DNA from: Branchiostoma floridae
Taxonomy: Eukaryota > Chordata > Leptocardii > Amphioxiformes > Branchiostomatidae
Length of the DNA: 64,000 bases
NCBI RefSeq assembly: GCF_000003815.2
Contig: NC_049981.1
Span: 27,791,577 to 27,855,576, forward strand
Direction of reading: 5' to 3'
The position numbers were made by a program, and so were the translations under genes. Shown in pieces: positions 11,534-14,500 of this stretch. Below the pieces are notes generated by a model. That model did no database searches. It saw only the letters and a program-made list of their open reading frames with translations, and had not been told where the DNA came from. Numbering within the stretch: the stretch's first letter is position 1; each line of letters starts with the position of its first letter.

Positions 11534-14500
11534 CTAGAGTTGGAGCAACAACATAAGTCACTCTTTAATCTGCTCTGCAACAACACATAAATATGCACAG
11601 AAGTACTCTACCAATGGTGCACAGCTACAGGGAATTTACTTTTCCCATAACCAACAGATTACTGTTGACTCAAAAAAAGTATTTTCTAAACAATGTTGAC
11701 AGTGACTACAGATTAAAATGAAGACGTGCATACTGTGTAGTTCTACCTACAGTGTACCTCAAGACTACCACAACATTTCACAACATTTAATTTGACACAA
11801 ATTACAACAACTTTTGTACCCTCCTCCCTGAAGAGTTGTTTGTAAGAAAATGCTGAAGACAGGTGAGAAAATGAGATCATCAAGAAAGCAGTCAATGTAA
11901 AGAGGAACGTTCAGCTATGACAATTCAATCTTGTTCAATTTGATGACTAATTTTATCTTATCATTTTTCATTGTAGCAGATGATAAGAGTTAATGAACAA
12001 TACTAGATCTCAAATGGGATCATAGCAAATCTTTTAACAACAGTGTTGAAAGAATTTAGGCTGAACTGTGTCCTCTCTAGAGATGTTGATTTTTTTAAAT
12101 GGTGTCCAATTCCTGCGAATGTAGTGATACATGTAGCTGTATCTTCAGCAGGACATTTAATTAATTGTTGCAGCCTATTTAGCAATTTGTGGCAGTTGCT
12201 ACATTAACACTTAAAACCAGATGAAATTTGACACGATGGCTGCCTTGCTGTTCACTGTCCATATTTTTTTGATAAATGAATAAAAAGGGATCACAATGAT
12301 CCGCATACAGGCAGCCAACTTGGCTAGCACCTGTCAATGCAGAAAAATTTTTTTGGGTGGGGAGGCTAAATAGGGTACACACACACAAGTGCTATCTGGA
12401 TGAGTTGCCTTTGCACAGACTTTTGCAGGACAAAGTGCCATGGTGTGCAACCTGGGCCTGTTTATTCGAGTGAAAGCTCATCTGTGTTGGTAAATTCTAT
12501 AGTGAAAAAGTTAAAACTTTGTTCCAACACAAAAAGAAACTCACCATAAATTTCCGGCTGTAGACTTTGACCTTCGCCAGATGAATGACTCGCTCCGGAT
12601 TAGTGCAGCGAGTCATTTATCTGATGAAGGTCGGTGTATTGGGCCGAAAATTCATGAATTTTTTTTGTGTTGGAACAAAGTTTTAATTTTTTCACACTGG
12701 GCCTGTTTACTTCAGGAGGCACAATTAAGTTTTCCCTGCTTTTGCTTTTTGTGTGAAGTCAACAATCCAAACCTTCAGACTTTAACACCAAAGAGCCAGG
12801 TTGGATACTAGTCTGAGCTACAAGCACGTCTTACGAGACACACTTGGAACTCAGCCCAGGAAACTTTGTGTGCTATGGAAATATGTATTTTGACCCAGGT
12901 AACACACTGCGGACCCTATTTCAATTAATCAATCAAACAGATAAACACTGAAAAATACTTGCAGAATAAACCAACTTCACAAGACCTGGAAACAGTACTG
13001 GAACTTGGGACATCAAACTACTCTACACAACATCATCATCTAGTGAAATACTGTCATGGTCGAGATAATGACACCCTGATGCAAGAAGTAACGTCTGCTG
13101 TCTTTCCCTGAGTGGAAACCCTGTTTTCTCAGAAGCAAAAGTTATGCGAGCCAACAATGAACCGTTTGCATTTCATGGGGAAAAGCAAAAGCACCAGTAG
13201 GGCGATCACACCTTGACAATACTTCACTACTTTGAGAATTTTACGAGGCAACTTGCTTGTCTCCAGTTGGAGGTGCACAAAGTATGTACAAGTGGTGACG
13301 CGGACAACATAAAGGTTGCAGACTAAACCTACAGCCATACTCCACGAGTAATTGTTGTAAGCAAAGTACCTTCACGTTCAGCGATTCCTGAACAATGCCA
13401 ATGCGGAGAAAAGAGAACAGAGTTTGCATTGTGCTCGTTTGGTAAGTCAAATCAAAGTGGCTTTGAAAGCACCAAACGAGCAAATACAATTACTTTCACA
13501 GTACAAGTTATCATCCGCATTTACAGATGATTTGCCGAAGCTTCACCAACCAAAACTGGGCAAAGAAAAGGAAGGCATAAGCTATCGGGTAAACTCTTGT
13601 CTTCAGTCAACTGCATCACATAGGGACAGAGTTCGCATCTCTATCCCCATGTTTCACCAAGGTTGTGTGTGTAGGTCCATGTACATGTACTTTAGTGCAT
13701 CGCTTCATATCAAGTATGTTTCCATCATAGCAACAGCTACAGAGGCAAAATAAAATGTTGATATTGGGCAACACACAACCTTGATGCCTCCTACCATTGA
13801 CAATAAACAACACAAGTACTATACACCAACCACTTGAATTTTCACATCGATTACTGTGCCAATTACATTCATTCCTAAAATACCTTTTCTTGGGGGTCAA
13901 AACACTTGATATAAACCACAGTACACAGCTACTTTTTTGTCTACTTCTACTGTTACATCTACAACATCTACAGTTACATGACCACCTTGTGCTACATCTA
14001 CTGTCATTTTACTTCCTTTTCCTACTAATTTTTTTGTTGTTCAGGAACTTGTGGCTAACCCTAAATGGTGAGTAATTCTATTGGAAAAGTACCTTCCTGC
14101 TCAGCAATTCCTGAACAAGCTCAAATGTAAGAAGAAAAAAGAACATTCCTTCACAAAATCCCAAGGACATTTCACAACTTCTGAGTGTCTTCTGCCACAC
14201 CCTATCACGTCCACAGGATTTCCACAACTTTCTGAAGTAAAAGTATTGCTTGTCGTCCTTGTCACAACACTACTAATATATGCCTATGATTAAAAACATT
14301 TTAAGACAAAAGAATTGAAATGACTGGAAGGAGAGAAAGAAGCAATAGCTATATATATTACTGAGGTGAATCATTAAAGTCAAATAGAGATTCTAAATAC
14401 ATTTTGTTTCCACCTAGTATAAGTATATTAAGCTCATTACGGTATGACCAGAAAAAAATAAGAAAAAAATCATTCCATGCAAATTCAACAGGTTTAAGCA

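Follow-up and report, generated by a model that had tools for sequence, protein, structure and literature searches.

The window analysed here, a stretch of 64,000 nucleotides of the Branchiostoma floridae genome, carries on its minus strand a complete calcineurin A gene of 13 exons, which encodes 496 amino acids and ends in a single terminal stop codon in the form that skips the two candidates described below. The exons were located by tblastn with human PPP3CA as the query, and the exon borders were then fixed. Exon 1 gave a weak tblastn match only (E 1.6), and its placement also rests on the ATG, the donor and the reading frame. A second calcineurin A gene was not found in the 513-Mb genome, where 12 of the 32 matches are the exons of this gene and the remaining 20 have 35-58% identity. 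A Pfam scan of 40 of the 292 open reading frames listed for the window recovered one family, Fibrinogen_C; the domain lies in an exon of a neighbouring gene (window 2176-2496, minus strand, Pfam E 8.9e-38). The intron between exons 12 and 13 of the calcineurin A gene (E12 and E13), which runs from the end of E12 at 14615 to the start of E13 at 11533 and is 3,081 nt long, contains two 18-nt microexon candidates, m1 and m2:

14615..14712, minus strand, E12, the constitutive exon upstream of the candidates, ending in ...TLQS-G
14093..14110, minus strand, m1, microexon candidate of 18 nt, GIAEQE, phase 1-1 (sequence, frame, intron scan, genome search)
13370..13387, minus strand, m2, microexon candidate of 18 nt, GIAERE, phase 1-1 (sequence, frame, intron scan, genome search)
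11379..11533, minus strand, E13, the last exon, opening with the remainder of AIQGYS and closing with the stop codon

When the initial annotation of the two segments was re-checked, their coordinates, the acceptor TTGTTCAG, the donor GTACTT and the peptides GIAEQE and GIAERE all agreed, and the junctions 14615-14110, 14093-13387 and 13370-11533 proved correct in the exon model. The claim that every combination keeps the frame also holds, with proteins of 496, 502, 502 and 508 amino acids for inclusion of none, m1, m2 or both, each with one terminal stop. The net charge added is -2 for GIAEQE, -1 for GIAERE and -3 for both. The pyrimidine tracts before the two 18-mers are as strong as was reported, with 12/13 and 13/13 pyrimidines. 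In a donor weight matrix, GTACTT of both candidates scores 1.30 and is poor at positions +4 and +5; of the gene's 12 remaining donors, 11 score 2.65-6.19 and one scores -0.09. A match to the branch-point motif yUnAy is found at -21 for m1 and only at -59 for m2. The AG exclusion zone of m2 is clean back to -48, and that of m1 is interrupted by an AG at -11. Use of this AG would give an alternative in-frame form of m1 of 27 nt (window 14093-14119, minus strand) with three extra residues.

The homology between m1 and m2 extends beyond the 18 nt. By local alignment it spans approximately -35 to +23, or about 78 alignment columns, in two blocks:

14070..14145, minus strand, homologous block around m1 with pyrimidine tract, acceptor, exon, donor and about 23 nt of intron (local alignment)
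13346..13419, minus strand, homologous block around m2 (local alignment, column counts)

The 33-nt units of exon plus splice sites are 88% identical, and the two are adjacent homologous exons, as a tandem duplication gives. A longer duplication was considered and rejected, the 300-nt flanks without the exon aligning no better than shuffled sequences (85/500 and 159/500 reach the score). The two copies differ at four bases within the exon, of which two changes are silent and two jointly turn CAG (Gln) into CGT (Arg), as had been described. The selection on protein that was read from this pattern is less certain; three of the four changes do lie at third codon positions, but the bias is weak on its own and not significant (p = 0.11). 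Maintenance is better argued from the junction cores (-7 to +4 and -4 to +7), which are identical in 22/22 columns, compared with 38/56 columns elsewhere in the block (Fisher p = 0.0019; the 18/56 differing columns include gaps).

Two copies of the 33-nt unit lie in the window, where 0.00 are expected, and two were found in the 513-Mb genome when up to three mismatches are allowed, with 0 matches for the controls. A dispersed repeat was rejected, the unit having been found just twice genome-wide. With 91 bases around m2 as the genome query, the sole match was the query itself and m1 was missed, so that this search shows uniqueness for that stretch only. Candidate exons were defined as segments of 9-36 nt with a length divisible by three, open in phase 1, preceded by YAG and at least 10/13 pyrimidines and followed by a donor scoring at least as high as GTACTT. 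Under these fixed criteria m1 and m2 are the sole candidates in the E12-E13 intron. A pair of candidates of the same length with at least 14/18 identity was obtained in 0/2000 first-order simulated introns. At least two candidates, alike or not, arose in 216/2000 and 51/600 simulated introns (two runs) with the 10/13 tract, and in 2/600 with a 12/13 tract, which both m1 and m2 possess. At the laxer of these two tract thresholds, approximately 0.5 exon-like segments are expected by chance in an intron of this size, and an antisense control scan yielded 5 candidates in 35,774 nt, with 0 in the LR1 intron (E10-E11) and 1 in the LR2 intron (E12-E13).

Five human chains match the last two exons. 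An insert directly follows TLQS in 1aui (ATVEAIEADE) and in 4or9 and 4ora (ATVEAIEAEK), whereas 4orb and 4il1 are without the 10-residue insert after TLQS. Human chains and exon model therefore agree with the statement in the initial annotation that vertebrates have an alternative insert at this same point, ahead of the autoinhibitory segment. The likeness of the predicted peptides to this insert is marginal. Among the 2,333 open 18-mers of the intron, 1.3% and 3.0% reach the end-anchored scores of GIAEQE and GIAERE against ATVEAIEADE, and 8% and 17% reach those of the best ungapped placement. In mouse, exon 13 of both Ppp3ca and Ppp3cb is described as a regulated 30-nt cassette whose inclusion rises after birth, and redirecting both exons to skipping in C2C12 myotubes led to more nuclear Nfatc3 (PMC5577920). 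Skipping of Ppp3cb exon 13 is reported to be promoted by PTBP1 in T cells (PMC9546061). A 2025 study presents the LR2 linker as a hotspot of alternative splicing, with a mutually exclusive pair of homologous LR2 exons in tax-6 of Caenorhabditis elegans; the words Drosophila, insect, mollusc, chordate and amphioxus are absent from its main text (PMC12503234).

Judged by these sequence features, m1 and m2 are likely to be microexons. The explanation we favour, with a probability of about 0.7, is a tandem duplication of a cassette microexon: in the one calcineurin A gene detected, m1 and m2 would both encode optional pieces of the LR2 linker, where vertebrates have exon 13. Two other explanations were weighed against it. 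Only one copy may still be in use as the LR2 microexon, the other having lost its splicing and become a relic; the weak donors of both would suit this. Either could be cast as the relic: m1 as a decaying copy, with an acceptor that is predicted to be buried and the extra AG at -11 as possible marks of decay, or m2, where the missing near branch-point match could be such a mark. However, a relic should have lost its junctions, and here the junction cores are the part that stayed identical, in a block where one in three of the remaining columns differs; moreover, m1 and m2 are both still open and in phase. Because a dead copy should not show this preferential conservation, both copies look kept as exons, and we consider the relic quite unlikely. 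Very unlikely is an origin in which neither segment is an exon and a small non-coding duplication merely resembles two of them. The background of chance exon-like segments, about 0.5 per intron of such size and five in the antisense control, speaks for it. On the other hand, m1 and m2 match the vertebrate insert exactly in intron and phase, none of the 2000 simulated introns held such a pair, the splice junctions are preferentially conserved, and two genome copies do not make a dispersed repeat.

The initial annotation had also suggested that the pair might be mutually exclusive, which was not borne out: inclusion of both keeps the frame (508 amino acids), the two lie 705 nt apart, and both are GT-AG with the same donor. 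At a distance of 705 nt there is no steric block. Neither the frame nor the spacing nor a clash of intron types would keep m1 and m2 from being included together. Mutual exclusivity is unproven; the sole candidate for enforcing a choice is an RNA-pairing element, which is speculative. Two structural features are of relevance here:

14037..14047, minus strand, TTCCTGAACAA, the exact 11-nt complement of TTGTTCAGGAA at both acceptors, a possible RNA switch (speculative)
13432..13482, minus strand, hairpin with a perfect stem of 12 bp immediately preceding the pyrimidine tract of m2 (fold search)

If m1 and m2 were mutually exclusive, TTCCTGAACAA could pair with one TTGTTCAGGAA acceptor and hide it while the other stays free. 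We regard such a switch as unlikely, even though the complement is perfect and any 11-mer complementary to the shared acceptor cores was found in just 12/2000 simulated introns. Folding is also in its favour, as a 121-nt fold of m1 and the element has a z of -2.6, with 1/200 shuffles as good, and the m1 acceptor is predicted to be 1-2% unpaired, compared with 10-58% for the acceptors of E2-E13. Yet in an intron-wide duplex scan the element at 14047-14037 came second, not first, for each acceptor, and with one mismatch allowed its 11-mer has 5 matches in the window against 2.7 expected and is not rare. The idea is moreover post hoc and from one genome, and neither the frame nor the 705-nt spacing nor the intron type requires exclusivity. 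The 131-nt region that holds the hairpin at 13482-13432 folds better than 200/200 shuffles (z -3.6); m2 folded by itself (76 nt) does not stand out (z -1.19, 23/200 shuffles as good). The predicted folds of the element and the m2 hairpin are leads, not evidence of exclusivity. A complementarity of the m1 donor to 11649-11631 was taken as chance because many such pairs exist (44). The same intron contains a nested foldback at 12502-12695, with 37-nt arms that are 95% complementary and inner 50-nt arms that are 76% complementary, and it resembles a foldback or MITE-like insertion. Most likely, m1 and m2 are chosen not strictly exclusively but independently or by graded regulation.

The intron of the other regulatory linker, LR1 (E10-E11, 15298-19998, minus strand, 4,701 nt), was compared with the LR2 intron in a scan that counts distinct donors. 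It has four phase-1 candidates, compared with a simulated mean of 0.65, and 2/600 simulations reach four. All four remain with an 11/13 tract, which 0/600 simulations reach, and one remains with a 12/13 tract, reached in 32/600. The four candidates and one longer open segment are:

19148-19131, minus strand, GLDLPN, LR1 candidate with a strong GTAAGT donor
18663-18643, minus strand, ENFVSYK, LR1 candidate (same-criteria scan)
18451-18434, minus strand, ARTALN, LR1 candidate (same-criteria scan)
17693-17670, minus strand, ATDSDDGQ, LR1 candidate (same-criteria scan)
16673-16747, minus strand, open segment of 75 nt in the LR1 intron, phase 1-1, 25 residues, with good splice sites

A donor of at least 6.5 together with a tract of at least 11/13, as in the GLDLPN segment, was seen in 5/1000 simulations. 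The LR2 intron has two candidates, and the other ten introns together have two in 27,992 nt. Thus 6/8 candidates fall in 22% of the intron length (p about 0.002, or about 0.007 with the LR2 pair counted once; hand arithmetic, post hoc). An exon 10a of 27 nt is known from mouse Ppp3cb and Ppp3cc (PMC5577920), and an alternative exon 10 is placed in LR1 (PMC12503234). In its widest form, the pattern would be that of a single gene with microexon arrays in both linkers, the LR2 pair governed by the acceptor-masking RNA element and LR1 equipped with four or five short optional exons, which achieves what vertebrates do with three paralogues, namely many linker lengths and charges. We hold this to be improbable.

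For the favoured explanation of duplicated cassette microexons, a mechanism can be proposed. Since the GTACTT donor is weak, m1 and m2 would be expected to be skipped unless helped; with their strong tracts and weak donors they would be skipped by default and included where a tissue regulator assists. UCUU is found in both upstream tracts, three times before m1 and once before m2, and YGCY is present within both exons. As motifs, these are compatible with control of the PTB type and the muscleblind type. Regulation by the eMIC, for which UGC lies near the 3' splice site, was considered and rejected: there is no UGC in the 120 nt upstream of m1, and the one nearest to m2 is at -41. A search for the eMIC (SRRM_C) domain gave no match in this genome, nor in any of 14 control genomes. 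Inclusion would add GIAEQE, GIAERE or both, and with them 6 or 12 residues, to the linker that joins the calmodulin-binding segment to the autoinhibitory one. The linker would then be longer and more acidic ahead of the autoinhibitory segment, which may tune both the release of autoinhibition by calcium and calmodulin and the substrate preference.

If the pair is real, one detectable calcineurin A gene gives a natural linker series of 0, 6 or 12 added residues with an added charge from 0 to -3, in the very place that is variable in vertebrates and nematodes. Splicing after TLQS would then seem either to predate the vertebrate paralogues or to have arisen repeatedly. Among the literature matches listed, GIAEQE occurs in none and GIAERE in a plant taxonomy paper only, and among the papers listed for Branchiostoma, calcineurin and splicing isoforms no title is on calcineurin A splicing. 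In PMC9741552 tandem duplicated exons are compared with microexons, and no duplicated microexon is described in that comparison. Duplicated microexons may be little described; of six phrases for them, only 'microexon pair' and 'paralogous microexon' were found, in one paper each.

Among known systems, exon 13 of vertebrate PPP3CA and PPP3CB resembles m1 and m2 in gene family, point in the protein, preservation of the frame, very short length and location before the autoinhibitory segment, and the UCUU in both lancelet tracts would fit control by PTBP1 as reported for mouse (PMC9546061). The vertebrate exon is 30 nt long, whereas the lancelet candidates are two tandem copies of 18 nt with marginal peptide similarity. 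Exons 13a/13bc of tax-6, a single calcineurin A gene, are likewise two homologous alternative exons that diversify LR2 (PMC12503234). However, the tax-6 alternative exon is described as encoding most of LR2 and as mutually exclusive, while the lancelet linker is complete as it is and m1 and m2 would be optional additions to it. The 5' alternative exons of troponin T are very short and combinatorial. In TNNT3, which encodes a calcium-signalling protein, exons 4-8 are consecutive alternative exons that belong mostly to one phase class (PMC2447309), but TNNT3 is another gene with a larger array, and the lancelet exons are a recognisable duplicate pair. Neural microexons under the eMIC (Srrm3/4) share the length and the preservation of the frame, the weak donor reported for the fly targets and, in the case of m2, a tract containing UCUC (PMC8797185). 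They differ in that here no UGC is near either acceptor and an AG stands at -11 of m1. Of the proposed new way of tuning the linker, the duplicated pair of candidate microexons is supported, but a mutually exclusive homologous exon pair in LR2 was already described for nematode tax-6 (PMC12503234). The m1/m2 pair would be an addition to a known LR2 splicing hotspot, for which mouse exon 13 and the tax-6 pair were already known.
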